A stretch of DNA of 64,000 bases from NCBI RefSeq assembly GCF_018446385.1, contig NC_055991.1, positions 118,463,794-118,527,793 on the forward strand, written 5' to 3'. Position numbers and translations under genes: made by a program. The notes beneath the pieces are model-generated. The model saw only the letters and a list, made by a program, of their open reading frames with translations. It made no database searches and had not been told where the DNA came from. How positions within the stretch are numbered: position 1 is the first letter of the stretch; each line of letters begins with the position of its first letter. This document shows positions 3,886-62,481 of this stretch, in pieces. Source of the DNA: Zingiber officinale. Taxonomy: Eukaryota > Streptophyta > Magnoliopsida > Zingiberales > Zingiberaceae.

Positions 3886-3895
3886 CTTTTATAGC
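3886..3895 (-). promoter_or_regulatory. LTR TATA box
   Basis: CTATAAAAGGG on the minus strand, about 60 bp downstream (in sense) of the palindrome cluster and about 390 bp before the LTR 3' end. Confidence 0.55.
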
Positions 3896-3949
3896 TCTGC
3901 AAAAACTGATCCAGATCCCCAAGGCTCGGGATCAAGTTTAACCTGAGGC

Positions 3950-4265
3950 GGATCGGTCGACCGATCACCGGTTCGGTCGACCAATCAGATGACCTCGACC
4001 TCATTTGATCCGCTCGCTCCACTTCGATCCGATCAACTTTTATCCGAGGTTCGGTCGACCGATAACCAGGTTCGGTCGACCGAACAGCTGCTCTGACTCA
4101 GTCCACCCGACATGATCTAGTCGACGTCCATCCTAGGTTCAGTCAATCGATCCCTAGGTCTGGTCGACCGATCCCCTGGTCGAGCCCGGTCCAACCTCCG
4201 GAAATCTGATCTGCTAGCTTGGGAGTTCAGTCGACCGATCCCAAGGTTCGGTCGACCGATCCCAG
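3950..4265. repeat. palindrome cluster, core TCGGTCGACCGA
   Basis: About seven copies of GGTTCGGTCGACCGATC and close variants, spaced 20-60 bp apart with unrelated spacers. Each word is its own reverse complement at the core. The cluster lies in U3 directly upstream of the TATA box. Confidence 0.8.
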
Positions 4266-5410
4266 TCAGTCCTAACCCTGCATGAAAATATTAGTTTCCT
4301 GCAAAACAGAGTTCGAACACAAAAGATAATAGAAATAAATTTGACAGTCTCCAAACCGTCCGGGTCTGACTTCGGATTTCCAACCGAAAAACTCTAGGTC
4401 GACCCGACGCCTACTGTTCCCTCTGCGGGGAGCGCGTCCTCACCTACTCCTCTCAGGAGAGTTACATGATGCCAGCTCAATCCTCCAGATCGACTGGACT
4501 TTTGCTCGGTGCTCGATGCTTCCGGACTTTCTGCAGGACTTCCGCTTCCCGGCTCGTCCAGTCTTCCACCTGGTTCGCAACACTAGGACTTTCCACCTAG
4601 GGTTACCACCCCCTAGGACTTTTGCCTGAAGCCCTCGACCCGCCAAGACTTTCCGCATAGGGTTACCGCCCCCTATGACCTAGGGTTACCCCCCCTAGAG
4701 TTTTCCCCTTGCCTAACCGCAGCTAGGACTTTCCTGAAACACTCAATCATACACATTAGATAACAATTAAACTTAACTTTGAATCCCTTTGCCATTATCA
4801 AAACTTGAGTTCGATCGTCGGATGCTTCCCGCACCAACAACTTCCAGGCTGTGGGAGGCACTAGGCCTTCTTGGGTATGGGATCATCCACCACTTCTAGA
4901 CAAAGCCTTTCAAAGAAATTAGATATTTAATTTTCCTTTTGAAATCCTTAGGTCTAACTGATCAAGTGTAAATTACGCCTAGGTCCTTATTTATCCTAGT
5001 CTAAGCATGCATAATTAAAAGAGCAGTAAATCAAGTATCAAGCAAATATATCTATTGATAAAAATGATCTTTCTATTGGCTCCCCCTGGATCATAGCCTC
5101 GATAGGGTCTATCAAGGTAATGGATTTGATCCTTGAGGATTAAATATTGACCCAGTCCAACTTGATTAACCAAGTTCAACTTGGGGACCCATGCTTGGAC
5201 TAATTATCTATTAGTTCTATTTATAATTGATAAATAAGACTTGTATTTGCGTTTAGTCTTAAATCCAAGTCCGGACCGGTTGTAAACAGCTCGCTATTTT
5301 CCAAGAATCAGATCAAGATTCTTGGAACCCAGAGTAAACCGTTCCAACGTGTCCTTTAGTTCCTTGACTTGATTTTTCAGGCTAGAATTCTCTTCTTCAA
5401 GCTTTTGGAC

Positions 5411-7001: not shown

Positions 7002-7125
7002 TGTTGGATCGAAAGCGCTAGAGGGGGTGAATAGCGCTCGTGGCTTTCACTTACGTTTTGAAAGACTATGAGTAAAATGTAGCAAAAAATTAAATGACAA
7101 TTGAAAACACGGACACCAAGATTTA

Positions 7126-7159
7126 CTTGGTTCGGAGCCTATGGTAACTCTTACTCCAA
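7126..7159 (-). other. predicted LTR RNA stem-loop
   Basis: Sense strand: TTGG/CCAA outer arms and an inner GAG/CTC stem, followed by TAAATC. Confidence 0.4.
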
Positions 7160-7387
7160 AGCCCACGCTCATTGAGCGTTTACTTTGGGCAATCACTATA
7201 AGCTCAGAAACTTACAACTTGAAATACAAATTAAAGCAGTAATGAAATTATACCAACAACAGAAAATACAGAATTTAAAGCTTAGGTCATCGGTGTCTTG
7301 TCACAGCTTTGTCGGATCGTCCTTTGAGCGGCACACGGAATAATGGTTGCATGTTTGTTGTTGTTCTTAGCTGCTGCTCGAGATCTG

Positions 7388-7396
7388 CTTATAAAG
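7388..7396 (-). promoter_or_regulatory. LTR TATA box
   Basis: Sense CTTTATAAG, directly downstream of the GGCGCC cluster. Confidence 0.5.
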
Positions 7397-7398
7397 CC

Positions 7399-7640
7399 TG
7401 TAGAGGGTGCCTCCAACACCATGGAGGGCGCCCTCAACCCCGCCAAAAACGCCGTGTCGATAAGCCTTGACTCCTTCATGACTTATCAGCCTGAGGGCGC
7501 CTCCAACCGCATGGAGGGCGCCCTCGTGCTAGTGTGCAAGACGCCCTCAAGCTCCATGAGGGCGCCCTCGCGCCTTACTGCGAGGTTGTTTCTCCAGGTC
7601 ACCCGAGGCACCTCCAAGCTCCATGGAGGGTGCCTCGGGT
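7399..7640. repeat. palindrome cluster, core GGAGGGCGCCCTC
   Basis: About six words of the GAGGGCGCCCTC type or close variants (for example near 7424, 7513 and 7560), plus a CATGG-centred dyad near 7622. It holds the same U3 position as the TCGGTCGACCGA cluster in the neighbouring LTR. Confidence 0.75.
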
Positions 7641-8278
7641 ACTGTTCATCCGAGGCAAACACATCCAATTCACTTCCTGCAAAATATGTTAGTCCAAGAA
7701 ACTAACCATACCCTGCAAAACAAAGCTAGCACAATATAAACATGATAAATAACATATTTGACAGTCTTCGAACTATCCGATTCTGACTTTAGATTTCTGT
7801 CCGGAAACCCTAGGCCGAATCGACCCCTACTGTTCCCTCATCGAGAAACACGTCCTCACTTACTCCACTCAGGAGAGTATACATGTTGCCGGACCGGTCC
7901 TCCAGACTGACTGGACTTTTGCTCAGCGCCCGAGACTCCAAGACTTTCTGCTGGGCGTTCGCTCCATAACCCGTCCAGTCTTCCACCTGGTTCATGACAC
8001 CAGGACTTTCCACCTAAGGTTACCAACCCCCTAGGACTTTTGCCCGAAGCCCTCGACCCATTAAGAATTTCTGCCTAGGGTTATCACCCCTACGACCTAG
8101 GGTTACCACCCCCTAGGGGTTTCCACCTGCCTAACTGCAGCTAGGACTTTTGCCTAAGTACCCTTAGGACTTTCTTACAAACTCATTCAACCACGTTAGA
8201 CCATAAATGACCTTAATTTTGAATCCTTTGCCATTATCAAAACTTAGATTCGATTGTCGGATGCTTCCCGCACCAACA

Positions 8279-8903
8279 GCTATGGAAGAAAAATCTGTTA
8301 AGATTTTTCATAATAAAATTCTATTATGATTTTATATAATAGAATTCTATTATGATTTTTCATAACAGAATTCTGTTGCGATTTTTCATAACAAAATTTT
8401 ATTATGATTTTATCGGGTCTGGGGTTTATGCATTATTTATAGGGATCATTATAAACCTATTGTACAACAACAATCACAAGAATAATTAGATGTGATTCTC
8501 TTATATAGAAAGAATTCTAATAAAGCTTCAGTCATTTTTGTAGAGTATGCACGTCGCCGAACTACAGTAACTCTTCTTCTTTCTCTTCTTCTTCTCTTTT
8601 CTCGTGTTTGCTCTCCTTTTGTGAGTCTTTGTCTTGTTACTCCACACAATCTCTTTTCTCTCTTCGTTTTCTTCTGCACATTAGAGGCTGAGAGGTGTTG
8701 CCCCTCTTTATGCAACAATTGCTTTGTGGAGTAGGCACATCGCCGAACAATGGTAACTCTTCTTCTTTCTTTTCTTCTTCTCCTTTCTCGTGTTTGCTCT
8801 CCTTTTGTGCGTCTTTGTCTTGTTGCTCCACACGATCTCTTTTCTCTATTCCTCTTCTTCTACATGTTAGAGGTTGAGAGGTGTTGCCCCTCTTTGTGCA
8901 ACA
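8279..8903 (+). mobile_element. element H 5' LTR, 5'-truncated
   Basis: Matches the 3' LTR at 43261-43733 and, inverted, the LTR fragment at 49914-50162. It begins inside the LTR at the 'tatggaagaaaaatctg' block because the preceding insertion ends at 8278, and ends at ...GCAACA (8903). It contains EcoRI-type palindromes (8285-8405), a TATA-like TTATTTATAGG near 8433 and an internal ~186-bp duplication. Confidence 0.75.
8285..8405. repeat. palindrome cluster, core ACAGAATTCTGT
   Basis: Three to four degenerate ~27-bp units alternating AGAATTCTGTTA-like words with GATTTTTCATAA. It is upstream of the TATA-like TTATTTATAGG. The same array occurs at 43316-43440 and inverted at 49985-50105. Confidence 0.7.
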
Positions 8904-10417: not shown

Positions 10418-10431
10418 GCTCTGATACCACT
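10418..10431 (-). other. primer-binding site of E-A
   Basis: Minus strand AGTGGTATCAGAGC, next to the LTR edge at 10432. Confidence 0.8.
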
Positions 10432-10750
10432 TGTTAGGGTCGATTTGTAGCTAGAGGGGAGTGAATAGCTCATCGCGCTTCGTTGTCTTGCTTCGTGATG
10501 ATGATATGCAGCGGAATGAATCACGAAACACACTTACAACGCTCACAAATAGATTTACTTGGTATCCACCTCAAGATAAGGTGATTAATCCAAGGATCCA
10601 CACACACGACGCTCTCCACTAAGAAAAAACTCCTCGGTAACTACCGAAGGTGGAGAAACCTTGTACAAGACTCACACGAAAAAATATACAAGAAGAACGA
10701 AATACAAGCTAATATAATAGCAAATCTTACAAGATTTACAATGAAGAAAC
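10432..10750 (-). mobile_element. E-A 5' LTR, segment 1 of 4
   Basis: Begins TGTTAGGGTCG at 10432 and matches the first 300 bp of the E LTRs (30505 and 36152). It is interrupted at 10750 by E-B. The LTR resumes at 16652, 30207 and 37553 and ends at 38101. The four segments total about 1330 bp, against 1396-1415 bp for intact family LTRs. Confidence 0.8.
10558..10594 (-). other. predicted LTR RNA stem-loop
   Basis: Outer CTTGG/CCAAG and inner CACCT/AGGTG arms; same fold as in LTRs D and E. Confidence 0.5.
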
Positions 10751-10907
10751 TATAAAGGATCGGTGGCCGACTAGAAGGGGGTTGGATAGCTAGGTCACCC
10801 CCAAATCGCGTTTCTTCTCCTACAAGTTAGTGCGCAAGCAGAAATACAACTAACTAATGAAAATAATAAAGAAAAAATACCAAATCGCTAACAAGCTCTA
10901 TGTAACG

Positions 10908-10936
10908 TGGTTCGGAGATTGTTTGCTCCTACTCCA
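10908..10936 (-). other. predicted LTR RNA stem-loop
   Basis: Sense TGG...CCA outer arms and inner GGAG/CTCC; the copy in LTR-B is at 14684-14712. Confidence 0.4.
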
Positions 10937-11217
10937 TGACATGTCCTTGAGGTGGACGAACCCTTGATCCTTCGGTGGACCAATCCACGACAATCTCCGG
11001 CTAGAGCTTTCTCCTTCTCAGTGGAGCAAACCTCTCACAAAGGATCTCTTCCTCTTTACAATGATGAAGTTTAGGTTTTGAGAGGAAGAGAGTAGACATA
11101 GAAGCTTTGGACAATTGCTAAGGAGTTATTCAGCAAGCATGAGTAACCTCCTTCAAGTTCCAAAGTTTCCTATAAATAATAAGAGAGAGTTGATCATCAT
11201 ATAAACTCATCTCGGCA

Positions 11218-11475
11218 CCAGTCGACTGGTAAAATCATCAGTCGACTGGTGCTACCGTTGGAGGTAGCCAACGGCTACTTCGTAGCACCAACGGTTGGCC
11301 AACTGTCATTTACCAGTCGACTACTAGTTTTAGCAGTTGACTGGTCGCTGTAAACTGAGCAAACAGAATGCTTCTGTTCGTTGCTAGTCGACTGCTAAAA
11401 CATGCAGTTGACTGGTGCAATCGACTGCTAAAACATGCAGTCGACTGGTGCAGTTGACTGCTAAAAGTTGCAACA
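11218..11475. repeat. palindrome cluster, core CCAGTCGACTGG
   Basis: Six or more words of the type ACCAGTCGACTGGT or GCAGTCGACTGG, several with a CpG-to-TpG change (AGTTGACTGG). In sense it lies upstream of a TATA-like TTATTTATAGG near 11170. Confidence 0.75.
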
Positions 11476-11878
11476 GACTGGACTACACCTTGTTACACAC
11501 TCACACTCATCCTCTCCGGAGTCGCCCTTGAAGTCCTCTTCCTCGGCCTTTGTCCCTTAGATGCACCCGAGCTCGCGGCTCCTCTCCGTGCCATCCTTCA
11601 CATTGCCTTGAAGTCCGCTTCCCTCGGCTCCACTCCGTTGCTCCTCGTCCGGCGGTCCCTCGGATGTTTTCCACACCATCCTTCACCGACTCAAGGATCT
11701 GAGTCCTAGGATGAGCTTCCCAAGCTTAGCTGCACCAAGCTCCTCATGTGTGTTTCACCAAGTCCTGCAAGACTCAAACACACATATCAAACACCTATGA
11801 AAGTCTAACTTAAACTCTTTGACACACACATCAAAATCATGATCGTACCGATCAGCACTTAGGTCGATTGCACCAACA

Positions 11879-13040
11879 ATCTCTCCCTTTTTGATGTGTG
11901 ACAATATGTTTAAGTTAGCACAAATAATAACATTGAAAATTAAAAGCAATATGTAAACATAAAGGATAATACATAAGCTCCCCCTTAACACCTTAACATT
12001 TTTCTTCAACCTTAATTTTCAAGTTTTGCACACAATTAGGTTTCTAACTTAAACCTTCCCATTTCTCCCCCTTTGACACCATCAAAAGTTGTACCAAATA
12101 TAAACCCATACCAAGGTATCAATGTGGACTTAAAAATGCTCAAAATCAGCTCTTGAAGGTGCTGGAAAAGAGCTACTAGTCGACTGCTACCTGTCGCAGT
12201 CGACTGGCACAAACCAATTCGAATTTTCAACATTCAGAAGCCAACTTCAAAAATGCATAAAAAATTCTAGAAAAATCATAAAATTTTGAAAACATATTTC
12301 TTTTAAGGGGCTCTATCTAGGAAAAATATGTTTTCATAAAAATTCATCATATTTTTGAAGTTTTGATAAAAACTCAAATACCTTGAAAATCACTCAAGTT
12401 TGTATCAAATTAAACCCTAGTTTTGAATTCATATGTTTCAAAACAACTATTCACTATAAATAAAACATAGAATTGTTTTCAAAACATTTGAAATGTCCAA
12501 CTATGATCTATGGGCAAGATGTCCATTAATTAAACATTTGCTTTCCCCATAGTTGGCCTATGATCACTAAGAATCGATACATTTCATAACTCATCAAAAT
12601 GTCATAAGCATAAGTGAATTATTTGTACCATCCTATCAACTCACATCTATGGTTAGAAAATAATTCAAGTCATTGTGAGATAAAGGTAACATCTACTTAG
12701 CCCTTTTTATCATGAATTTCTATCAAGGCTAAGTTCTCCCCCTTAAAGTCTCAAGTCAACCAAAAAGAAAATTGGAATTATGATTTCCATGGTTGACTTG
12801 ACGTAAAATCCTCTAACCCTTGAGGATTGACTTTGACACCCAATAGAGGTTCTTTATAATTGGGTTGATCAAGTATTCCTTGGGGATCCATTTTCTATCT
12901 ATGGTCTTAGTTTTTGATTGCCCCTAGCAAGTAGACAATGATAAGTCTTTTCATTGTTGGGTTCATTATATCCTAACCTATTTTTCTTAAAGCTTTCCCT
13001 TTGTCTCCCAATAATCATATTTAGGATTTTAGAGCCAATT
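11879..13040 (-). other. E-B non-coding 3' internal region
   Basis: AT-rich with no credible frame. It holds the PPT at its left end and a short palindrome pair at 12176-12212. The rest is degenerate noncoding DNA. Confidence 0.6.
12176..12212. repeat. internal copy of E-B palindrome words
   Basis: TAGTCGACTGC and CAGTCGACTGG, the same core as in E-B's own LTRs, about 300 bp inside the 3' LTR. Confidence 0.7.
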
Positions 13041-14525: not shown

Positions 14526-14683
14526 TGTAAATGATCGGTGGTCGGCTAGAAGGGGGGTTGGATAGCTAGGTCACCCCCAAATCGCGTTTCTTCTCCTACA
14601 AGTTAGTGCGCAAGTGGAAATACAACTAACTAATGAAAACAATAAAGAAAGAATACCAAATCACTAACAAGCTCGATGTAACG

Positions 14684-14712
14684 TGGTCCGGAGATTTCTT
14701 GCTCCTACTCCA
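14684..14712 (-). other. predicted LTR RNA stem-loop
   Basis: LTR-B copy of the GGAG/CTCC stem within TGG/CCA arms; the outer arm carries one substitution. Confidence 0.35.
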
Positions 14713-14992
14713 TGATGCGTCCTTGAGGTGGACGAACCCTTGATCCTTCGGTGGATCAATCCCCGGCAATCTTCGGCTAGAGCTTTCAACTTCTCGGTGG
14801 AGCAAACCTGCCACAAAGGATCTCTTCCTCTTTACAATGATGAAGTTTAGGTTTTGGGAGGAAGAGAGTATACTAGGAAGCTTTGGACAATTGCTAAGGA
14901 GTTATTCAGCAAGCATGAGTAACCTCCTTCAAGCCCCAAAGCTTCCTATAAATAAGAGGAGAGAGTTGATCATCATATCAACTCATCTCGGT

Positions 14993-15225
14993 ACCAGTCG
15001 ACTGGCAAAACCATCAGTCGACTGATGCTACTGTTGGAGGTAGCCAACGGCTACTTCGTAGTACCAACAGTTGGTCAACGGTCATTTACCAGTCGACTGC
15101 TAGTTTTAGCAGTCGATTGGTCGCTACCGACTAAACGAACAGAATGCTTCTGTTCGCTGCCAGTCGACTGCTAAAACATGTTGTCGACTGGTGCAGTTGA
15201 CTGCTAAAAGTTGTAACCGACTGGA
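14993..15225. repeat. palindrome cluster, core CCAGTCGACTGG
   Basis: Counterpart of 11218-11475 with the same core and similar spacing; some words are point-mutated. Confidence 0.75.
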
Positions 15226-15770
15226 CTGCACCTTGTTACACACTCACACTCATCCTCTCCGGAGTCGCCCTTGAAGTCCTCTTCCTCGGCCTTCGTCCCT
15301 CAGATGCACCCGAGCCCGCGACTCCACTCCATATACTATCCTTCACGTTGCCTTGAAGTCCACTTCCCTCGGCTCTACTCCATTGCTCCTCGTCCGATGG
15401 TCCCTCGGATGTCTTCCACACCATCCTTCACCGACTCAAGGATCCGAGCCCTAGGATGAGCTTCCCAAGCTTAGCTGCACCAAGCTCCTCATGTGTTTCA
15501 CCAAGTCCTGCAAGACTCAAACACACATATCAAATACCTATGAAAGACTAACTTAAACTCTTTGACACACACGTCAAAACCATGATTGTACCGATCAAAA
15601 CTTAGGTTGATTGTGTAGGACCGTTGCGGTCGGCTAGAAGGGGGTTGTTGGATAGTCCTGTAAAATAAAAAATAAAACAACCCTTCTCGAACTCTTTAAG
15701 CTAACACTTGCATAAATAAAGTAGAGTGGATAAATAAAAAGCATTAAAAAGATGAGATACAAAAGGTTTA

Positions 15771-15803
15771 CTTGGTTACAACCGATGTGGTTGTTAATCC
15801 AAG
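15771..15803 (-). other. predicted LTR RNA stem-loop
   Basis: Outer CTTGG/CCAAG and inner ACAACC/GGTTGT arms with a 5-nt loop. Confidence 0.5.
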
Positions 15804-15950
15804 GAAGATTAAGCTCACTTAAAAACTCCTTCTAGCGGAGAAGCCTCGTACAGCGTTTGAAGTGCAGAAAACAGAAGCTCAACTCTAGACTAAAGCTTAC
15901 AAGCGTTGGAATTACAATTCAGAGTTCGTTGAAAAGCTTCTGGACCAAGG

Positions 15951-15962
15951 CTATATTTATAG
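15951..15962 (-). promoter_or_regulatory. LTR TATA box
   Basis: Sense GGCTATAAATATAGCC, directly downstream of the GGGCGCCCGG cluster. Confidence 0.6.
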
Positions 15963-15973
15963 CCTTGGTCGGA

Positions 15974-16130
15974 GTGCCTGGAAGGGTTCCGGGCGCCCTG
16001 GGGGGATAAAACTTTATCCCCCAACGTTCAGAACGCATTAGACGCGTTCTGGTCAAAATTCAAGTTCTGGGCGCCCGGAAGGGTTCCGGGCGCCCCGGGC
16101 TGCTCAGGGCGCCCCGGACTGGTCCGGGCA
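15974..16130. repeat. palindrome cluster, core GGGCGCCCGG
   Basis: Four to five GGGCGCCC words with CCGGAA flanks; the matching arrays are at 39099-39255 and 42235-42405. Confidence 0.75.
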
Positions 16131-16651
16131 CCCCAGACCCTAAGTCAACTCCGGTTGACTTCTTTCGCCTCGGTCTGGGTCTTCAACTCCGGTTCCGCTC
16201 GCTTGGGTGATCTCTGCCATCCGGAATAGGGCTCACCCGAACCCAACTTCCGGTCTTCTCGAGTGGGCTTCCCTCCGGCTTCTCGTCCCTCAGAATTGCC
16301 GCGTGTTTCCTTCTCATCCGCCGGCGTACTCATTCGCAGTCTTCGTCCCTCGGACACACCGTGTGTCGTCCTTCTCGCTAGCTGCGTCTCTTGCTCCCCG
16401 AGCAATCTTCCGCTCCGACTTTCATCCCTCGGAACCACCACACGCTTCCTTCTCGTTCGCCGGTGTACTCTTCCGCAGCACCTCGTCCCTCGGACTGTCG
16501 TCCTTCTCACTAGCTGCGTCTTCCACTCGAGTACCTGTGCTCCAAAGCTCCTGTACACTTAGACAAAAGGTTAAAATACACAGGACCTAACTTAACTTGT
16601 TGATCACACCAAAACAACCTTGGGGTTCCAACAGATTGCACCAACAGAAAC

Positions 16652-42410: not shown

Positions 42411-42420
42411 TATAAATATA
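42411..42420 (+). promoter_or_regulatory. LTR TATA box (3' LTR copy)
   Basis: GGCTATAAATATAGC. Confidence 0.55.
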
Positions 42421-49913: not shown

Positions 49914-50162
49914 ATGATTTTTGTGATTGTTGTTATATAGTTTACAATGATTCCTATAAATAGTGCATAAATCTTAAACCTGCTAAAATTGTAACAAAAT
50001 TTTGTTATGAAAAATCGCAACAAAATTTTATTATAAAAAACTGTAACAAAATTCTGTTATATAAAATCGTAACCGAATTTTATTATAAAAAATCTTAATA
50101 GATTTTTCTTCCATGTCATCCATCACATTAGCCTTTATCTAAATATCAATCATCTGTCAACA
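49914..50162 (-). mobile_element. element I 3' LTR, truncated
   Basis: Sense start TGTTGACAG at 50162, then GGAAGAAAAATCT and the ACAAAATTTTGTTA array. Truncated near 49914 at the tandem array, so R and U5 are missing. Confidence 0.75.
49985..50105. repeat. palindrome cluster, ACAGAATTCTGT type
   Basis: Inverted counterpart of 8285-8405, with more AAATTTT variants. Confidence 0.65.
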
Positions 50163-50892: not shown

Positions 50893-51019
50893 TATGTATC
50901 TGTAACGCCCGAAAATTCTCAAAATTATTTTAGAAATATTCTATAATTTTTCTGGAATTTTAGGATATTTTTACAGAATTTTTAAAGTAGCGGAAGTAGC
51001 AAAAATAAATAGAATCGTG

Positions 51020-51100
51020 AATAGCCTAAGCGGGAATTGAACCCGAGACCTATTGGATCCTACGACTTATGGTGAACTCTAGTAACCAGGAGAACCCAGC
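51020..51100 (-). other. tRNA-like block with B-box match
   Basis: On the minus strand it reads CTCGGGTTCAATTCCCGC, matching the Pol III B box GGTTCRANNCC inside a 4-bp T-arm-like stem, with TGGTTACTAGAG about 40-50 bp upstream. No matching acceptor stem was found, so it is not called a tRNA gene. It is duplicated at about 58195-58275. Confidence 0.35.
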
Positions 51101-51166
51101 AGGGCCGTGCTGAAAGGAAAGGGAAACAATTTTATTTAAGTTAGAGTTGGGTGAATTAATTCCTTA

Positions 51167-51176
51167 ATATAAATAG
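51167..51176 (+). promoter_or_regulatory. gypsy LTR TATA box
   Basis: ATATAAATAG about 265 bp into the LTR, implying a short U3 and a very long R/U5. Copy at 58341-58350. Confidence 0.5.
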
Positions 51177-52587
51177 GGAATTAAGTGAGGAGTTTTATTT
51201 TTTAACGTGACCTACCTCTTCTCCTCACCCTTACACGCCGCCCCCTTCTCCTCTTCTTTCTCTCGGCGCACCAAGCCCCAAGGGCTAGGGTTCCGTCCCA
51301 AAGGCTCCAAGAGCACCTTCCGGCGATAACTCCGGTACGAGGACGCTCTCCACCACGAGAGGGACACGTAGATGCAAGGAGATCGCCGAAGGGATTTCTC
51401 CACCGGAAAACTAGCGACTAGATCAGTAAGAAAACTAGCACAGGAGGTAAGAAACCCCTCACCTGCAGTATAAGTAGTTCTCGTGTGATTGCATGTTTTA
51501 GTTTAGTAGTATATGGATTTTTGGCACATAGGGTGAGCAATAGCGCACACCAAGTGCTCGATAGTAGGTGCAGCCATTTAAAATGCAACTTAGGCCTTGT
51601 AATAGCTCAGTAAATGCAATAGAAGCATTTTTATAGCATGTCCAGCTTTATTACAACTTTTATGGGACTACGGTCCAATGGGTGGGCTCCCACAGTCGCC
51701 TCTAGGTTCAGACAACCTAGCTCTAGGTTCAGATAACCTAGAAATAGCAAGATAAGAACAATTCAGCTATAACCAGTATTTTATTTTCAGCAGTGACACT
51801 GTACTGGACTAGATGTCCATTGGGTTGGGCTCCCACAGTCGTCCCTAGGTTTAGATAACCTAGTAAACCCTACTAAATTCGGGACTTGCAAACCCGGGTC
51901 TAGTTAGGGATGCGCGCATAGCAAGTACAGTTGTCGGGCCCAAACAGCAGCATGATTATGTATTTTCATCTATCTATGATAAATAGTTTTCAAAACTCAT
52001 AAATCAGTTGTGTATACAGTTTAATTTCAGTTCTAGCTCAGTTTTAGTGTAGCTCAGTTCATGCTTTAGCTTAGCTCTTTCTTATTGATACATGTGATAG
52101 TTCTATGATTAGTTTTGATTCTGTATTTTGTATGATAGTATGTCATGCCATGCTTTAACATGTTCAGCATAGATTTCAATAGCATGTTTTAAAAAGCATA
52201 CATTGCATCGTATGCATGTTTTGTGAGGTAGATGGTTTCTTACTAAGCTCTCAAGCTTACAGATACTCTTTTCCTTATACTGCAGATAAAGGTAAAGGAA
52301 AGATGGACTAGCGGAGGCTGGAGGACAATGCAACGAAGATGTGTGTGAAAAAGGAGTTTGGAATGAAGATCTCAGGGATTTAGCAAGTCTAACTATTAGA
52401 ACCTTGTTATTTTTAGTTTTCGCATTTTAGTTTGTTTAAAAATCATGAACTAGTGAAATATGCACCATGCCATGTTTAAAATGCTAGATAATTGATGGTA
52501 GAATGCATTTCAGTTAGTTTAAAGTTGGTATATGAGATTTCTGCTCGAACCAGGGCTGAAATCAGGTTCTGATATGAAATCAGAAAC

Positions 52588-52960
52588 CCCAATCGATCAG
52601 CCGATCGATTGGAGGCTTCTCAATCGATCCGTTGATCGATTGGGCAGCTTGTCCCGCGAACAGAATGCGTCTGGATCGATCGACCGATCGATCCAGCCGA
52701 GTTCCGTCGCGAACAGAAGGTTTGGGGATCGATCAGCCGATCGATCCGTGCTGAACCGCGTACAGCGCGTCGTTGAATCGATCATTGGGTCGATTGGACA
52801 TACTGGATCGATCAGCCGATCGATCCAGACACTAGTTCCCGCGTACAGTAGGATCCTGAATCGATCACTGGATCGATTGCCCGACCTGGATCGATCAGCC
52901 GATCGATCCAAATTAGTCTCCGTGCACAGTAGCATGCTGGATCGATCCGTGGATCGATCA
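52588..52960. repeat. palindrome cluster, core GGATCGATCC
   Basis: About fifteen ATCGAT-type words, many as GATCGATC-AGCC-GATCGATC dyads. Same words as in copia LTR-D and the E internal cluster. Confidence 0.85.
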
Positions 52961-53215
52961 GAGGCCTAGTACCAGCTGAAAACACTTTAGTTCAGCCCTA
53001 GATGACAGTAAAGACCTAGAACACCCCTTCTAGCATAGCCACAGCAATTCAAGGGGTAGTTTAAACATTAAGTTCTGATAGTATAGCGATTAACAGAAGC
53101 ATAATCATTAGTTCAGCAAAATTTTCATTAGATCAGCTTTCCGCACATGAATTAGTTAGCATATTGTGACGATCAGCCTCACAGTCTAGTTAGTAGGAGG
53201 CGGGTCGTTACAGAG

Positions 53216-53227
53216 TGGTATCAGAGC
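53216..53227 (+). other. gypsy primer-binding site
   Basis: TGGTATCAGAGC, initiator-Met tRNA type, 3 bp after the LTR. Confidence 0.9.
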
Positions 53228-53424
53228 AAAGTTCCATACTTTCTACAAACACATCAGCATTGAACCTGCAACTTCCAAGTAAGAATACCTCTCACTTTGT
53301 TATGATTATTGCTTTCATGTTTGTAGATAACTAAAGTATGCTTATCTGTGATAGTAACTAACATGATAGTATTAGCTATGTAAACATGATGCTTTAGTTA
53401 TGTATGTCCTTTGTTCCTTTAGAA

Positions 53425-54522
53425 ATGACACGAGGACGCCCAGCTAGAAGGACACCAGCTACTGAGCCCCAGCATGAGGCAGGCAGTTCAGTGCCTCCCC
53501 CAGACCTTACAGCAGTAGTGGCTCAGCTACAGAAGCAACTAGCAGAACAACAACAGGAGATAGCCACCTTAAAGGCTAATCAGCAGAATACTCCCACTGT
53601 CACCCCGAAACCAAATATAGCAACCCCAGTAGTTATAGAGGTTTCATCAGTCCAGCTTACAGCACCAGTATCCCCAGCAGCAGAGGCAAAGAGAGAAGCC
53701 TATCTGATCCAGTGGCAGAGAGTCAAGCCCGAGAACTTCTCAGGCACCAGTGAACCATGGGATGTTCAAGCCTGGTTCAAATCACTGGAGAGTACGATGG
53801 AGCTTCTGAACTGGCCAGAGCATGAAAAGGTAAAGTGCGCCTCCTTCTGCTTAACAAGAGATGCACGTATGTGGTGGGAGAGAATTAGAGTGAAACGCTC
53901 AGTGAACCAGATGACATGGGTTGACTTCGAGAAAGAATTCTTCGAGGAGTTCTTTCACATGCGGGTCACCAATCGTCACTACGACGAGTTCACTGAGTTT
54001 TGTCAGGGCAACCTATCAGTTGAGGAAGCCGTGAAGAAATTCAATAGACTGACTCGTCTATGCCCCGAACTAGTCAGCACAGAAAAAGAACGAGTCCGGT
54101 TGATACTCAAGATGCTGAGGCCGGAAATAACAATGAACGTGGCTAGCGGCGTTCATAGGCCGCAAACCACCGAAGAACTAGTCAGCAGTGCTCTGACCAC
54201 CGAGCACTACCAGAATAATATCAAGCAGCAGAAGCAAGTCCTCTCAGAGTCCAAAGGGCAAGGAGGCTCAGGTACTCAGAAACAACAGGGCCACAGGTCT
54301 AACTGGAAAGGGAACTCCAGCAACAAGCGCAAACCAGGGAGTTACCCAAAGGGAGGACCAGCCAACAAACAGCCTAGTTATCCCAAATGTGCTACTTGTG
54401 GGAAATTTCACCCAGGAGTTTGTCGCAAGGGCACACGAGGATGCTTTGAATGTGGACAAGAAGGGCATATGGCTAAGCAATGCCCGAACAAGACAAGTCT
54501 TCCTCAACCACAACCGATATAG
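53425..54522 (+). CDS. gypsy gag
   Basis: Structural protein of virus-like particles. The ATG at 53425 (MTRGRPARRTPATEP) is chosen as the conventional chromovirus gag start; an in-frame ATG at 53404 adds seven residues. A coiled coil (TAVVAQLQKQLAEQQQEIAT) precedes the capsid domain with FSGTSEPWDVQAWFKSLE, REAYLIQWQRVKPENF and FFHMRVTNRHYDEFTEFCQG. The C-terminus is basic with CATCGKFHPGVC and an intact knuckle CFECGQEGHMAKQC. The frame ends at UAG 54520-54522. The same frame stays open beyond it into protease, so in relatives with one polyprotein this stop would be internal. Confidence 0.9.
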   Translation: MTRGRPARRTPATEPQHEAGSSVPPPDLTAVVAQLQKQLAEQQQEIATLKANQQNTPTVTPKPNIATPVVIEVSSVQLTAPVSPAAEAKREAYLIQWQRVKPENFSGTSEPWDVQAWFKSLESTMELLNWPEHEKVKCASFCLTRDARMWWERIRVKRSVNQMTWVDFEKEFFEEFFHMRVTNRHYDEFTEFCQGNLSVEEAVKKFNRLTRLCPELVSTEKERVRLILKMLRPEITMNVASGVHRPQTTEELVSSALTTEHYQNNIKQQKQVLSESKGQGGSGTQKQQGHRSNWKGNSSNKRKPGSYPKGGPANKQPSYPKCATCGKFHPGVCRKGTRGCFECGQEGHMAKQCPNKTSLPQPQPI

Positions 54523-57500
54523 TACGGAGGTCAGCCAACACAGCTACATCAGATGCAGGCCGTTTTAGATGGTCCACACATCAGCCAGGGCAGACTAGAA
54601 GCCCCTCCAGCTATGACGAATGCAAGGATCTACTCCTTAACCAGAGAAGACATAGCGAATGCCTCGACAGTTGTTACAGGTCAGATTAGTATTTTACAGC
54701 AAAGTGCAACTGTCTTATTCGATACTGGGGCAACCCATTCTTATATATCCAGGGCATTCGCCAAAAAGTTAGCAGTACCCCGGAGAGGTATTCAGTGGTC
54801 AGTTTTTGATGACGCTACCTTCGGGAGAATTTATGGCGTCCACGCACTGGCTCTGGGCAGTGCTAGTCATTATAGCAGTCAGAGAACTCTTTTGTGATCT
54901 AATAGTGCTAGATATGACTGATTATGATGTCATCCTTGGGATGGACTTCCTGATCAGATACAGTGCCTCTATAGAGTGCCGTAAACAGAAAGTCGTATTC
55001 CAACCTGAAGCAGAAGTACAATTTGAGTACATCGGAGAACCAAAGAGAAAGGCCAAGAAGTTTCTCTCAGCTCTAAAAGCACAAAAATTAATGGATTCAG
55101 GATGTACGAGATTCTTAGCACATGTAGTCAATACCAGTCAGAACAAGGACCAACAGCTAGAAGGGGTCCGCGTTGTATGTGACTACCCAGCAGTCTTCCC
55201 TGAAGAGTTACCAGGCCTAGCACCAGACAGGGAGATTGAATTCGAGATAGAACTCATTCCCGGCACAAATCCTATCTCCAAAGCGCCTTACCGCATGACC
55301 CCAGCAGAACTGAAGGAACTTCAGGAGCAATTACAGGAGCTTCTTGACAAAGGTTTCATATGCCATAGTTACTCACCATGGGGAGCGCATGTATTGTTCG
55401 TAAAGAAGAAGGACGGGAGCATGCCCCTGTGCATAGATTACAGAGCACTGAACCAAGTCACAATCAAGAATAGGTATCCTCTTCCCAGAATAGACGACTT
55501 GTTCGATCAGCTAAAGGGAGCAGTAGTGTTCTCTAAGATAGACCTCAGATCAGGTTATCATCAGGTGAAAGTTAAAAAAGGGGATATACCCAAGACATCA
55601 TTCAGGACTAGATACGGACATTATGAGTTCGTAGTCATGCCCTTTGGCGTGACAAATGCTCCAGCTACTTTCATGGACCTCATGAACAGAGTATTCCAGG
55701 ACTACCTAGATAGATTTGTTATTGTGTTTATCGATGACATTCTTATCTATTCAGGAACTCAGGAAGAACACGCAGAGCACCTGAGAATAGTATTGCAGAC
55801 CCTTCAGCAGAACTAGTTGTACGTCGAGTTCACGAAATGTGAATTTTGGTTAGACCAGGTGTCCTTCCTGGGTCACATCATCTCAAAGGATGGTATCATG
55901 GTAGACCCCAGTAAGATAGAAGCTGTGAGTAACTGGAAAAGACCCAAGAACGCCAGTGAGATCAGAAGTTTTTTGGGACTAGCAGGTTATTACAGAAAGT
56001 TTGTAGAGGACTTCACCATAATAGCCTCCCCACTGACAGCTCTCACCAGGAAGAACAGAAAATTTCAGTGGACAAAGGACTGTGAGAACAGCTTCAGCGA
56101 GTTAAAGAGGAGATTGACCAGTGCTCCCATTTTGACTCTACCAGAAAACACAGACAGCTTTGATATTTATAGTGATGCCTCTAAGTTGGGACTAGGAGCA
56201 GTACTGATGCAAAATGGCAAGGTGATCGCCTATGCCTCCAGACAACTCAAGGAATATGAGAAGAATTACCCTACTCATGACCTCGAGCTTACAGCAGTCA
56301 TGTTCACTCTAAAAAATTGGAGACATTACTTGTATGGAGCTCAGTGTAGAGTATATACAGATCATCAGAGTTTGAAGTACTTCTTCACTCAGAAGGATCT
56401 AAATATGCGACAGCGCAGATGGCTAGAGCTGGTCAAAGACTACGACATAGACATCCTCTACCACCCAGGAAAAGCTAATAAGATAGCAGACGCACTTAGC
56501 AGAAAGTCCGATGCTACCTTACTATCCCTAGCAGCTATGTTACCGCCCCTACAGAAAGAGATCACAAATTTTGGTCTCGAACTCATAGTGGGACAGCTCT
56601 CTAATATGACATTAGCATCTACCCTGCTTGGTGACATCCAGACAGCTCAGGAACAGGATTCTGAAATTCAGAAAATCAAGCAAGGGTTAGCAGAATCGGA
56701 AAGTAGAGAATTCAGAGTGTCAGGTAGTGGGGTATTGTACTTCGGTGACAGACTCTGTGTTCCAGATCAGGAGGAATTAAAGAGGAAGATTTTAGACGAG
56801 GCTCACAGGACTCCCTACGCGATGCATCCTGGCTCCACCAAGATGTACCAGGACTTGAAGAAATGTTTTTGGTGGCTCGGGATGAAAAGAGACATCGCTA
56901 GATACGTTAGCACCTGTCTGACCTGCCAGAGGGTCAAGGAAGAACACCAGAAACCAGGAGGAGTTCTACAACCTATCCAGATCCCAGAATGGAAGTGGGA
57001 AGACATTTCTATGGATTTTATAGTGGGACTACCCAGAACCACGAATGGTTTTGATACCATCTGGGTAATAGTTGACAGGTTAACTAAATCAGCCCACTTC
57101 TTAGCCATCAGGATATCCTACTCCATGGAACAGTTAGCTCAGTTGTATCTCAAGGAGATCATTAGACTACATGGAGTCCCACGGACCATTATATCATATA
57201 GAGACAGTAGGTTCACCTCTCACTTCTGGGAGTGTGTACAGTCAGCATTGGGCACGAAGTTAAAATTCAGCACAGCCTTCCATCCTCAGACAGATGGTCA
57301 GACGGAGCGAGTAAATCAGGTACTCGAAGATATGCTCCGAGCATGTGCCCTAGACTTCAAGGGAAGTTGGTGCAAATATCTGAGTTTAGCAGAATTTGCA
57401 TACAACAATAACTATCATGCCACCATCGGCATGGCACCTTACGAGGCTCTCTACGGGCGGAGGTGTAGATCTTCAATCTGCTGGTATGAGAGTGGTGAAC

Positions 57501-58039
57501 AGAAAGAACTAGAACTTCAGACAGATCTAGTAGCAGATACCACAGCAGCTATACAGCAGATCCGCCAGAGGATAGAGACAGCTCAGAGCCGCTAGAAAAG
57601 CTATGCTGATACACGACGCAGACCCTTAGATTCAGTGTTCCTCAGAGTAGCTCCCATGAAAGGAGTAATGCGTTTTGGGAAGAAGGGCAAATTGAGTCCC
57701 AGATATGTGGGACCATACCTTATCACTAGAAGAGTTGGCAAGGTAGCATATGAGCTAGAGCTACTCCAGGAGATGTCAGTCATTCATAATATATTTCATG
57801 TCTCTATGCTGAAGAAGCATATTCCAGATGCCACCCAGGTGATTGAGCCCCAGTCGGTACCAGTCCGCGAAGACCTCAGCTATGATAGTCGGCCTATTCA
57901 GATAATAGACCGAGCAGTTAAGAAATTGCGGAACAAGGAGGTACCATTAGTAAAAGTCATATGGCGAGATCACACCACAGAAGATGCAACATGGGAGACA
58001 GAAGCTAGTATGAGACAGAAGTACCCAGAGTTATTCTAA
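54523..58039 (+). pseudogene. gypsy pol with frameshift and two UAG stops
   Basis: Protease follows gag in the same frame (active site DTGATHSYIS at 54721). A frameshift near 54800-54870 moves to the frame that runs to 58039 through UAG at 55814-55816 (late RT) and 57593-57595 (after integrase). RT has [20 protein letters not shown] and catalytic FIDD at 55727-55738. RNase [17 protein letters not shown] and [11 protein letters not shown]. Integrase: HHCC finger ending [14 protein letters not shown] core with [14 protein letters not shown], a SYRDSRF block and [12 protein letters not shown]. The C-terminus (VKVIWRDHTTEDATWETEAS) is a chromodomain. Three UAGs including gag's, but no UAA or UGA, interrupt it. 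Confidence 0.92.
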
Positions 58040-58074
58040 GTTCGAGGACGAACTTTTTATAAGGTATGGGGGAT

Positions 58075-60387
58075 TTTAACGCCCAAAAATTCTCAAAATT
58101 ATTTTAGAAATATTTTATGATTTTTCTGGAATTTTAGGATATTTTTACAGAATTTTTAGAGTAGCGGAAGTAGCAAAAATAAATAGAATCGTGAATAGCC
58201 TAAGCGGGAATTGAACCCGAGACCTATTGGATCCTACGACTTATGGTGAACTCTAGTAACCAGGAGAACCCAGCAGGGCCGTGCTGAAAGGAAAGGGAAA
58301 CAATTTTATTTAAGTTAGAGTTGGGTGAATTAATTCCTTAATATAAATAGGGAATTAAGTGAGGAGTTTTATTTTTTAACGTGACCTACCTCTTCTCCTC
58401 ACCCTTACACGCCGCCCCCTTCTCCTCTTCTTTCTCTCGGCGCACCAAGCCCCAAGGGCTAGGGTTCCGTCCCAAAGGCTCCAAGAGCACCTTTCGGCGA
58501 TAACTCCGGTACGAGGACGCTCTCCACCACGAGAGGGACACGTAGACGCAAGGAGATCGCCGAAGGGATTTTCTCCACCGGAAAACTAGCGACTAGATCA
58601 GTAAGAAAACTAGCACAGGAGGTAAGAAACCCCTCACCTGCAGTATAAGTAGTTCTCGTGTGATTGCATATTTTAGTTTAGTAGTATATGGATTTTTGGC
58701 ACATAGGGTGAGCAATAGCGCACACCAAGTGCTCGATAGTAGGTGCAGCCATTTAAAATGCAACTTAGGCCTTGTAATAGCTCAGTAAATGCAATAGAAG
58801 CATTTTTATAGCATGTCCAGCTTTATTACAACTTTTATGGGACTACGGTCCAATGGGTGGGCTCCCACAGTCGCCTCTAGGTTCAGACAACCTAGCTCTA
58901 GGTTCAGATAACCTAGAAATAGCAAGATAAGAACAATTCAGCTATAACCAGTATTTTATTTTCAGCAGTGACACTGTACTGGACTAGATGTCCATTGGGT
59001 TGGGCTCCCACAGTCGTCCCTAGGTTTAGATAACCTAGTAAACCCTACTAAATTCGGGACTTACAAACCCGGGTCTAGTTAGGGATGCGCGCATAGCAAG
59101 TACAGTTGCCGGGCTTAAACAGCAGCATGATTATGTATTTTCATCTATCTATGATAAATAGTTTTCAAAATTCATAAATCAGTTGTGTATACAGTTTAAT
59201 TTCAGTTCTAGCTCAGTTTTAGTGTAGCTCAGTTCATGCTTTAGCTTAGCTCTTTCTTATTGATACATGTGATAGTTCTATGATTAGTTTTGATTCTGTA
59301 TTTTGTATGATAGTATGTCATGCCATGCTTTAACATGTTCAACATAGATTTCAATAGCATGTTTTAAAAAGCATACATTGCATCGTATGCATGTTTTGTG
59401 AGGTAGATGGTTTCTTACTAATCTCTCAAGCTTACAGATACTCTTTTCCTTATACTGCAGATAAAGGTAAAGGAAAGATGGACTAGCGGAGGCTGGAGGA
59501 CAATACAACGAAGATGTGTGTGAAAAAGGAGTTTGGAATGAAGATCTCAGGGATTTAGCAAGTCTAACTATTAGAACCTTGTTATTTTTAGTTTTCGCAT
59601 TTCAGTTTGTTTAAAAATCATGAACTAGTGAAATATGCACCATGCCATGTTTAGAATGCTAGATAATTGATGGTAGAATGCATTTCAGTTAGTTTAGAGT
59701 TGGTATATGAGATTTCTGCTCGAACCAGGGCTGAAATCAGGTTCTGATATGAAATCAGAAACCCCGATCGATCAGCCGATCGATTGGAGGCTTCTCGATC
59801 GATCCGTTGATCGATTGGGCAGCTTATCCCGCGAATAGAATGCGTCTGGATCGATCGGCCGATCGATCCAGCCGAGTTCCGTCGCGAACAGAAGGTTTGG
59901 GGATCGATCAGCCGATCGATCCGAGCTGAACCGCGTACAGCGCGTCGTTGAATCGATCATTGGGTCGATTGGACATACTGGATCGATCAGCCGATCGATC
60001 CAGACGCTAGTTCCCGCGTACAGTAGGGTCCTGAATCGATCACTGTATCGATTGCCCGCCCTGGATCGATCAGCCGATCGATCCAAATTAGTCTCCGTGC
60101 ACAGTAGCACGCTGGATCGATCCGTGGATCGATCAGAGGCCTAGTACCAGCTGAAAACACTTTAGTTCAGCCCTAGATGACAGTAAAGACCTAGAACACC
60201 CCTTCTAGCATAGTCACAGCAATTCAAGGGGTAGTTTAAACATTAAGTTCAGATAGTATAGTGATTAACAGAAGCATAATCATTAGTTCAACAAAATTTT
60301 CATCAGATCAGCTTTCCGCACATGAATTAGTTAGCATATTGTGACGATCGGCCTCACAGTCTAATTAGTAGGAGGCGTGCCGTTACA
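58075..60387 (+). mobile_element. gypsy 3' LTR
   Basis: 2313 bp, aligned start TTTAACGCCC (TG mutated to TT) and end TTACA; follows the PPT. Confidence 0.92.
59763..60125. repeat. palindrome cluster, core GGATCGATCC
   Basis: 3' LTR copy of 52588-52960 with about a dozen point differences. Confidence 0.85.
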
Positions 60388-60392
60388 GTATC

Positions 60393-61337
60393 ACCTCCTG
60401 AAAAGATGTAGGGTCTCTGCTATTAGTGATAAGTGTATAAGATACCAAGTCTTCGAATCTGTATCTGGTGGGTGGTTTTATGACTCGTCACATTCTGCCA
60501 CCAGCTATAGTATGATGCTTCGTGTGCTCTAAGCTAGAATCATTAAAGTCATGAGTCTCTATCTCTACCTTTACAACATCTTTCTCCATGTTGCTATGTG
60601 GTGTTTTCTTTCCTTCTTCTTGAGTACACTGTAGCATAGTCTTTTCATCAAACACCATATCTTTGCTGATCATCACCTTGTTGTCTTAGTATCCCAAAGC
60701 TTGAAGCCTTTAACTCCTTTTTGATACTCCAGTAAAATGTACTGTTTTGACTTTGCATCCAGCTTTGATCTTTCCTCACTAGATATGTGCATATAGGCTG
60801 GACATCTAAAAATACGAAGATGAAAGTAATCTACTTGATTCTCTGTCTATATTTCCTCTGATACTTTTCTTCTAGTGCTGCCATTGGTGATCTATTAATG
60901 AGATAAGTATCATGTTAACTGATTCTGTCCAGAAATTCTTTGCTAGCCCTGCATTCAGCTTAAGACATCTTGTCTTTTTAATGATTGTCTTGTTCAATCT
61001 TTTCGCTACCTCATTCTGATGAGGTGTCTTGCGAATTGAGAAATGTCTCATTATTCCATGTTGCTCACAAAATTCTTGAAACTTTGAATATGTATACTCA
61101 GTCTCATTATCCAACCTAAGACATTTGATATTCCTTCCGGTGTGGTTCTCCACTTTAGTTTTTCACAATTTAAACTTTGTAAAAGTTTCTGATTTGTGAC
61201 GCATAAAGTATACCCAGACTTTCTGTGAGTAATCATTAGTAAAACTCACAAACTATAAGTTCCCTCAATGTAATAATACACTGGCTAGTCCCCAGAGATC
61301 CGTATGTATGTAATCCAGAATCCCCTCCATTTGTTTG
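60393..61337 (-). pseudogene. element I integrase part
   Basis: Sense translation: GRNIKCLRLDNETEYTYSKF with the second catalytic Asp (usual LRSDNG, here LRLDNE), FCEQHGIMRHFSIRKTPHQN, then NEVAKRLNKTIIKKTRCLK, where the usual ERMNRT box has lost its Glu (AKRLNKT). LNAGLAKNFWTESVNMILIS leads to the linker before RT. Several frame changes (for example near 61100). The integrase start is cut off by the solo LTR at 61338. Confidence 0.82.
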
Positions 61338-62481
61338 TGTTGGAACAATCTAGGTGCTCTAGGTTTTGATATTTAGACAAAGGTTTAAGTTAGGTTTATT
61401 GTCATATTTAATATGCATTATGAGTGTGCAGGATACATGTACAACAAGGAAAGTCCAAGTGTAATTTTGATAAAGGAGGAAAGTCCAAGGATGAGTCTTG
61501 GCGGTGTAAGTCCAAACATGTAGTCTTAGCAATGTAAGTCCAAGTGTGACTTGACAATGGATGAAGTCCCGGAGGTGAGGAGCCTCTTGGCAAAGGAAGA
61601 CCCGACAACAAGGACAAGACCGAAGGAAGCTCTAGAAGGCAAGACGTGAAGGGATGGGGAGACATCCAAGGGACGTGAGGCTGATAGAGAAGGCTAGAAG
61701 GCTAGGTTTAGTTTGGTTGGACGAGGACGAGTGCTGAGTGAATATACTCGGAGGTCAAATCCTAGGGTTAGGGTTTGACCAATTGACTGGGGTAGGACAC
61801 AAAATGTTTTTGTGCCCGACGGTTGAAAAAATAGTCGCTCCGCACTGTAGCAGTCAACAAGTAATGTAGCAGTCAAACGGATACTGTAACAGTCAACCGG
61901 TACTGTAGCAGTTACTATAACAGTCGACTAGTACACTGTAGTAGTCGACTGATGCACTGTAGTAGTCGACTGGGGCACAGTATCAGTCGATTGATAGTCG
62001 ACCGTTAGCTTGTAACGATTAAATTTTACTTAGGACCAGTCAACTTATGGTTGTACCAGCCGACTGGTGGCGGGAAAACACTTGGTGTTTTCCTCCCGAG
62101 TTCTATTTAATAGAGCTCGGGGTGCTTGGATAATGTTGACGAAATATACTTGGTTAAAGCCTATTAGAGTTTCCCAATCCCTCGTGTGATCAGTGTACTT
62201 ATATTCAAGTGTTTGTGGCGAGGTTTCTCCACCGACAAGGAGCTTGAGCTAGCTGGAGATTTTTCGGGGAGTCATTCATCGACAGATAGGGATCGTCCAC
62301 CTTACGGATAGCCGTGAAGTATGAGCTTTATCTCAGAACCACGTTAAATCTATGTGTTAGGTTTGCTTTTTCTTGTTAGTATTTATTTTTTTATTCCACT
62401 GTGTGTACTAACCATTGTAGGAAGTGACATTTTGAGTGAGACGCTATTCACCCTCCTCTAGTGGACGTCAAGGTCCCAACA
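61338..62481 (+). mobile_element. solo copia LTR in element I
   Basis: 1144 bp, TGTTGGAACA to TCCCAACA. Flanks GTTTG (61333-61337) and GTTTA (62482-62486) look like a TSD with one mismatch. It has an AGTCGACTGG cluster (61906-62080), a TATA-like CTATTTAATAG near 62103 and the LTR-end box CGCTATTCACCCTCCTCTAG at 62443-62462. Confidence 0.85.
61906..62080. repeat. palindrome cluster, core AGTCGACTGG
   Basis: About seven words AGTCGACTAG, AGTCGACTGG or AGTCGATTGA, some preceded by CTGTAGTAG spacers; upstream of the TATA-like box. Confidence 0.75.

Follow-up and report, generated by a model that had tools for sequence, protein, structure and literature searches.

Palindromic repeated motifs (RMs) clustered upstream of the TATA box were described in 13 of 21 Sireviruses by Bousios et al. 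in 2010 (PMC2829016), and the motif words given in the available part of that paper include CGGTCGACCG of Vitis and ACAATCGATTGT of Tnd-1. In maize Sireviruses, the palindrome region is a small-RNA hotspot with variable sequence and strong predicted structure, according to the accessible text of two further papers (PMC5311732, PMC10760457). Here, we examine similar arrays in the long terminal repeats (LTRs) of Ty1/copia elements, and of a Ty3/gypsy element, in a 64,000-nucleotide stretch of the ginger genome (Zingiber officinale, contig NC_055991.1, positions 118,463,794 to 118,527,793; the window), much of which is occupied by nested LTR elements, their anatomy being read from the sequence. 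Coordinates are window positions; E and G denote elements in the window, and L denotes ginger loci outside it. We read the arrays as the palindromic "RM boxes" of plant Sirevirus LTRs, the cis-regulatory part that ends U3 just before the LTR promoter, and consider it probable that they form a cis-regulatory array of dyad sites exchanged as a cassette between LTRs. Since RMs upstream of TATA were already published for Sireviruses in 2010 (PMC2829016), the core observation is known and not a discovery. The sharing of a word with gypsy elements, the replacement of words between conserved flanks, and an insertion with two different arrays are extensions that we did not find in print in the open-licence literature, as far as its available text extends; the only case of cross-superfamily sharing found there was that of Helitrons (PMC10760457).

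The ginger arrays resemble the published RMs in many respects. Both are multicopy palindromes of 10 to 20 bp in the upper LTR half, upstream of TATA, with element-specific words, extra linker copies, and, in at least part of the ginger arrays, richness in CpG, and both adjoin multiple polypurine tracts, a short primer binding site (PBS), and a poly-C signal (PMC2829016, available part). The Vitis and Tnd-1 words have their cores in common with the words of E1 (TCGGTCGACCGA) and of the E4 5' LTR (AATCGATT), respectively. There are also differences. The same part of that paper terms RMs Sirevirus specific, whereas in ginger arrays occur in a Ty3/gypsy family and in a family of classic copia type as well; its linker RMs accompany an envelope gene, none of which was seen in the scanned open reading frames (ORFs) of the window; and its RMs are all CGG-CCG symmetric except for Tnd-1, whereas ginger cores are mostly ATCGAT, GTCGAC, and GGCGCC. 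With the maize cis region, the ginger arrays share variability, predicted structure, and a regulatory location in the LTR, but maize Sireviruses have one most abundant word (CACCGGAC..GTCCGGTG), compared to several words per family and two arrays per insertion in ginger, and the maize word recurs in Helitrons, the ginger word in a gypsy family (PMC5311732, PMC10760457, accessible text). A literature text search for the array words as letters gave no retroelement paper, judged by title or abstract start, among the matches listed, and a viral-contig scan for the unit of one ginger word, GATCGATC, gave 0 matches, a scan that may leave out the ginger genome itself. Tnt1 and Retrolyc1, elements of tobacco and tomato, carry short U3 boxes tied experimentally to inducers; their U3 regulatory repeats likewise change quickly between otherwise close subfamilies, whereas the ginger arrays are known here from sequence alone.

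Arrays lie upstream of TATA-like boxes in E1 to E6 and E9. E1 and E2, on the minus strand, each consist of a 5' LTR and gag. The Sirevirus-type E1 LTR (3498 to 4839; TGTTGG..CCAACA ends) has a poly-C signal and a TATA box, CTATAAAAG, near 3890, and its array of TCGGTCGACCGA (3940 to 4270) contains six perfect GGTCGACC cores, with a pair spacing of 20 to 21 bp and an RNA-fold z score of -5.5. E2, a member of the E1 family (LTR, 7002 to 8278), has an array of GAGGGCGCCCTC at 7399 to 7639 (pair spacing, 21 bp; fold z, -7.8). In E3, also on the minus strand, the array of the 3' LTR (LTR, 10753 to 11878; array, 11214 to 11486; word, CCAGTCGACTGG) has one extra 33-bp unit compared to that of the 5' LTR (LTR, 14526 to 15613; array, 14989 to 15229), and a pair of the word lies in the linker (12176 to 12207). 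E4 (30505 to 37547, minus strand) is flanked by an exact target-site repeat, AGAAA; its 3' LTR (30505 to 31920) carries ATCGATC-N4-GATCGAT units at 30991 to 31251, its 5' LTR (36152 to 37547) carries AATCGATT/AATCAATT at 36623 to 36878, and GATCGATC units recur in its internal region (32800 to 32975). The clusters at 30990 and 36628 in the preliminary description of this DNA belong to the two LTRs of a single insertion. The weak array of the E5 5' LTR (29106 to 30206, minus strand), at 29482 to 29607, combines GGCGCC and GAGCGCTC, ends at CCTATATAAGG, and was missing from that description. E6 (38689 to 42741, plus strand; exact target-site repeat ATTTA) carries GGGCGCCC at 39093 to 39263 and 42233 to 42403. 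The cluster listed at 15974 belongs to E6c (15614 to 16633, minus strand), an E6-family LTR copy nested in the E5 3' LTR, with GGGCGCCC at 19-bp spacing (15969 to 16139). E9 is a solo LTR (61338 to 62481, plus strand) flanked by GTTTG/GTTTA (4 of 5 bases match), with a degenerate CAGTCGACTG array at 61837 to 62072, followed by TCTATTTAATAG. The words first listed are all present at their positions, exactly or, at 61906 to 62080, at 43316 to 43440, and in some repeats elsewhere, with one or two changes.

Noncoding marks suggest that these elements are Sireviruses. The poly-C integrase signal, CTATTCACCCCC or near variants, precedes the LTR end by about 20 bp in E1 to E6 and E9. The 5' LTR/PBS junction, CA-ATTGG/AGTGG-TATCAGAGC, is exact in E3 and E4 and has one or two changes in E1, E2, E5, and E6, E9 being a solo LTR. 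Among the elements with a 3' internal end, which excludes E1, E2, and E9, AGGGGGAG tracts number four in E3 (the terminal one altered by one base), five in E4 (at most 0.6 kb from the 3' LTR), three in E6 (one within the gag ORF), and two in E5, near the 3' LTR; the terminal tract stands 10 bp from the 3' LTR in E4, E5, and L022 and 9 bp in E6. RM-like octamers with at most one change, counted in arrays other than those of E5, number at least 8 in E1, the E3 3' LTR, and both E4 LTRs and 3 to 7 in E2, the E3 5' LTR, the E6 copies, and E9, compared to a criterion of eight copies per element. The RM clusters of Sireviruses form CpG islands; in the ginger array zones observed/expected CpG is 0.68 to 1.54, and E1, E2, and the E4 3' LTR are the only ones in which GC content exceeds 50% over a 200-bp span. 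Among the scanned copia ORFs, a reverse transcriptase (RT) was found only in E5. Two other families bear arrays. E7 fits a classic Ty1/copia element, with AAGGTGGAGAT / AAGGTGGAAAT before the LTR, a tract that is single by eye, a 473-bp LTR, and an end without CCCCC. Its three partial copies are a U3-truncated LTR, E7a (8281 to 8903, plus strand; no poly-C signal; a 26-bp tandem with ACAGAATTCTGT-like palindromes, then TATTTATAGG), the E7b LTR (43261 to 43733, plus strand; array, 43308 to 43445), and a copy at about 49980 to 50110 on the minus strand. G (50901 to 60387, plus strand; exact target-site repeat GTATC; LTRs, 50901 to 53212 and 58075 to 60387) fits Ty3/gypsy, encoding Ty3_capsid, RVP_2, RVT_1, RT_RNaseH, and Integrase_H2C2, in this order.

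For each LTR, the palindrome density of its densest 200-bp stretch was compared with 200 dinucleotide shuffles (P value floor, 0.005). Of 15 LTRs (13 copia, with E7a truncated, and 2 gypsy), 11 exceeded the shuffles (P ≤ 0.05); the E5 5' LTR, E9, E7b, and E6c stayed below significance. A 572-bp LTR fragment, the 16th row of this test, gave a P value of 0.025. The array stretches, zones picked by eye and to that extent biased, fold with z scores of -2.6 to -9.2 against shuffles in 14 of 14 zones. Of 26 flanking segments from the same LTRs, 25 have z scores between -2.4 and +0.9, the exception being the distal U3 of E9, where the score (-5.7) is stronger than that of the E9 array (-2.7). An Rfam scan gave 0 matches at the gathering score, which rejects a known RNA family.

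A sample of 24 evenly placed 10-kb stretches from contigs C1 to C9 (240 kb) was chosen blind outside the window, and a cluster was defined as one GC-containing palindromic octamer in at least 3 copies within 300 bp. Twenty cluster rows in 18 places were found, compared to 0 in 20 shuffles, and palindromic words formed 0.085 clusters per word, compared to 0.016 for nonpalindromic words. These shuffles, together with those of the LTRs, reject a chance origin of the arrays. Random placing is also at odds with the sample: a cluster lies 384 to 526 bp upstream, on the sense strand, at 6 of 8 poly-C-marked LTR ends, and conversely, poly-C ends account at that distance for 7 of the 20 cluster rows. 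Of the two ends with no cluster, L009 has by eye a weaker GTCCGG/CCGGAC stretch before TATA, and in L011 the element borders on a gypsy LTR about 200 bp ahead of the poly-C signal. Arrays of GGCCGGCC and GGGCGCCC at L027 (4469 to 4565) and L014 (1993 to 2088) have a minus-strand TATA-like box 47 and 10 bp away, respectively. The claim that nearly every copia LTR bears such clusters proved too wide, as only 1 of 8 other ginger copia RT loci (L001) has a strong one within 1.5 kb after RT, a reach that may miss LTRs.

How do arrays with different words come to occupy the same place? Each LTR was divided into three blocks, with cuts where the array begins and at TATA, and the blocks of 15 LTR pairs were aligned, with 20 shuffles each. 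In the E1 family (E1, E2, L022, and L009; 6 pairs), the distal U3 is 78 to 87% identical (shuffled, 54 to 57%) and the block from TATA through R-U5 is 70 to 75% identical (shuffled, 53 to 54%), whereas the array is within about 1.5 standard deviations of shuffled sequence in 5 of 6 pairs. The L009 array resembles that of E5 (68 versus 54 shuffled), yet in the distal U3 L009 goes with the E1 type (84%; 62% with E5). Arrays are kept at 77 to 90% among the E6 copies and in the E3 LTR pair. Within the E1 family, arrays have thus been replaced rather than having drifted.

The two LTRs of E4 differ in the same manner. They are 96% identical from TATA onward and 89% identical in the distal U3 (82% counting gaps), but their arrays are only 59% identical, compared to 53% when shuffled, and the boundary falls near the TATA box. 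L023, an E4-family copy elsewhere, has an array 82% identical to that of the E4 3' LTR; it matches E4 at 91.3% over 4699 bp from just past the 5' TATA into the internal region, up to the end of the L023 stretch, and at 77.6% in the distal 5' U3. The idea that E4 is two elements was rejected, since AGAAA stands on both sides and the flanks, once joined, can be aligned with E4-family LTRs over the junction, as was an assembly gap, the sole N run in the window being at 63544 to 63650. The 5' U3 may have been converted, or it may stem from RNA-to-RNA transfer during reverse transcription, the data fitting either; misassembly without a gap could also be the cause.

Words are a small shared lexicon, not family specific. 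In a first 200-kb sample, GATCGATC has the highest z score of the palindromic octamers that are not AT only (40 copies, compared to 2.2 expected; 6 of 20 stretches), GGCCGGCC and CGGCGCCG having higher ratios but fewer copies. It fills copia LTRs (E4 and its relatives L023, L025, and L029), internal regions (E4 and L023), and gypsy LTRs (the 2.3-kb LTRs of G and its relatives L011, L024, and L032). L032 contains at 2800 to 3200 a G-family LTR (78% over 2053 bp) with GATCGATC units. The G arrays, at 52580 to 52970 and about 59755 to 60145, occupy LTR positions 1680 to 2070, about 1.4 kb downstream of a TATA-like box at LTR position 268. Copia and gypsy units have whole 11-mers in common, including the centers AGCC and CGTG, which keep a single orientation in E4 and G, and three center types counting either strand. 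Among the other words, the GTCGAC core is common to E1, E3, and E9 and the GGCGCC core to E2, E5, E6, and L022, and within the E1 family there are several words (GGTCGACC in E1, GGGCGCCC in E2, AGGCGCCT in L022, and a GTCCGG/GGCGCC mix in L009). The view that the core differs by family, with one word for each, is therefore rejected, as is one fixed place next to TATA: conservation of position does not hold for the gypsy LTR or for the internal copies of E3 and E4. A spacer, CGAACAGAATGC, is common to the arrays of copia E3 and gypsy G despite their differing words (11360, 15136, and 52657; a 17-bp match with one or two changes). By eye, the gypsy LTR at 50901 to 53212 also has a short stretch resembling a tRNA, near 51030, and splice-like signals, AGGTAAG near 51446 and CTGCAG near 52280.

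The GATCGATC unit mostly takes the form of a 24-bp dyad around a 4-nucleotide (nt) center. Among ATCGATC/GATCGAT pairs (at most one change, gaps of 0 to 12) in the window and the 200 kb, the gap is exactly 4 in 58 of 83. Across 44 distinct units, outer positions 1 to 3 pair in 35, 31, and 25 cases, compared to 22.9, 19.1, and 18.6 in shuffles (P = 0.0005, 0.0005, and 0.02, the first two at the floor), values that are too small because the units are related by duplication and both G LTRs are included; position 4 shows no pairing beyond shuffles (21 of 44; P = 0.42). Compensatory exchanges are of both G-C/A-T and G-C/C-G types. In 52 of 88 cases the first flank pairs inside a single word; the outer flanks thus pair more across the unit than within words, and the dyad is better kept than the 10-bp word. 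This advantage is clear for G5 together with the E4 linker (30 of 39 between words versus 24 of 78 within); over all 13 sources it is modest (90 of 162 versus 141 of 324), and the trend is opposite in the E4 3' LTR (9 of 18 versus 21 of 36) and the E6 5' LTR (1 of 12 versus 7 of 24), so that beyond the GATCGATC units the advantage is at most tentative. The GGTT center is inverted, in element sense, between copia L025 and gypsy L024.

What was observed directly is where the arrays lie, that they are palindromic and nonrandomly placed, that they have been replaced while their flanks were conserved, that superfamilies share a unit, and that the 24-bp unit has undergone compensatory changes; the favored explanation would join these observations through protein binding and an exchange mechanism. 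In each array, dimeric DNA-binding proteins of the host would occupy a set of dyad sites and thereby drive or gate transcription from the LTR, a reading favored because arrays precede the promoter in several families. Units would multiply inside the array, and gene conversion or template switching, breaking near TATA, would substitute the whole array of one LTR for that of another, a cassette exchange that would keep position and self-complementarity while the word changes. A promoter module with an exchanged word, as the preliminary description proposed, agrees with the kept flanks, with near-background arrays in 5 of 6 E1-family pairs, and with E4 LTRs that differ up to TATA; the family-specific binding word does not stand, and some copies lie far from TATA. 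Several points weigh against our explanation. The G array far from TATA and the internal copies leave a pure promoter role incomplete, a single factor is unlikely given many words across many families, and 13 of the 20 cluster rows lie away from poly-C LTR ends, including 3 in G-family gypsy LTRs (two in L024, one in L032) and 1 in an internal region. The arrays of E5 and E9 are not significant as perfect palindromes; in the sixth E1-family pair, E2 and L022, the array is at 62 versus 53 shuffled with the GGCGCC core in common, so related words were kept; and the placement among Sireviruses draws on noncoding marks rather than an RT tree. That the array is a mobile cassette passing between unrelated Ty1/copia and Ty3/gypsy elements, with selection on 24-bp self-complementarity rather than on the word, seems rather unlikely to us.

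The main published alternative to promoter dyads is that the arrays feed host silencing: U3 transcripts, at the 3' end of the genomic RNA, would fold into hairpins and be diced to small RNAs, and arrays would diverge quickly because they are small-RNA targets. The small-RNA hotspots and strong predicted structure of maize palindrome regions (PMC5311732, PMC10760457, accessible text) speak for it, as does the better folding of all 14 ginger zones than of shuffles, but palindromy alone yields strong folding. RNA-level selection should favor G-U pairs on the sense strand, and in the variant words, admittedly a weak test, no such support was found: C>T and CG>TG changes number 28, compared to 31 for G>A and CG>CA, and the CpG part alone (4 versus 11) points in the opposite direction. 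Silencing would also account for the use of arrays by the host and not for their being kept by the elements, and we regard it as a minority possibility. Much the same chance is given to mutational upkeep without selection, in which inverted repeats are perfected and multiplied when the template switches from arm to arm, be it in reverse transcription or in replication, as in self-correcting quasi-palindromes. Footprints of template switching are enriched in 4-nt loops (PMC8794818, available part), to which the compensatory changes and the 4-nt center correspond; the 33-bp unit difference between the E3 LTRs agrees as well, and the inverted GGTT center is a candidate loop-inversion footprint. 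However, AGCC and CGTG hold one orientation in E4 and G, the units shared with gypsy also require exchange, and upkeep alone leaves the placing just upstream of the promoter, family after family, unexplained.

Two further alternatives concern the RNA and the repeats themselves. Self-complementary hairpins could pair genomic RNAs of the same family for copackaging, a self-recognition code for which any such word would serve. Self-complementarity is indeed retained as the word varies, and the arrays lie in parts expected in RNA from the element anatomy (U3, linker, and gypsy LTR). The 20 ORFs scanned gave no sign of a pol domain in E3, E4, or E6, and hence packaging in trans would be needed. Yet one word in copia and gypsy would cross-pair, the sense strand has no G-U bias, and this code is very improbable. 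Least credible of all are ordinary tandem or satellite repeats, or composition, unrelated to the promoter. The E7 (26-bp) and E6 (19-bp spacing) arrays are partly tandem, and the majority of sampled cluster rows away from poly-C ends would suit such repeats, but shuffles of the 240 kb gave no cluster, clustering per word is about 5 times as frequent for palindromic as for nonpalindromic words, and 6 of 8 poly-C ends have a cluster 384 to 526 bp upstream.

Other features of the window include a WD40 gene (44779 to 46785; 95% identity to Zingiber officinale WDR44-like) and a hAT transposon (20410 to 25360; transposase ORFs, 21874 to 23938) that separates the integrase and RT parts of the E5 copia pol. 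Palindromes of the words TCGAATTCGA / CGAGCCGGCTCG abound at either end of this transposon, so that palindromes close to the termini occur in a second kind of element. The segments 30207 to 38110 and 10430 to 10752 are apparently one older E4-family LTR, split by the nested E4, E5, and E3. Internal homology between E1 and E2 ends about 10 bp past a AGGGGGAG tract in both (1605 and 5080), with no LTR after it.

The Sirevirus papers, in their available text, leave one puzzle: the elements retain palindrome arrays although these are said to attract silencing. Ginger offers natural swap experiments: close relatives whose arrays differ, two arrays within a single insertion, and a copia unit in a gypsy family. 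With these natural swaps, the promoter, silencing, and mutational explanations can each be put to a direct test.

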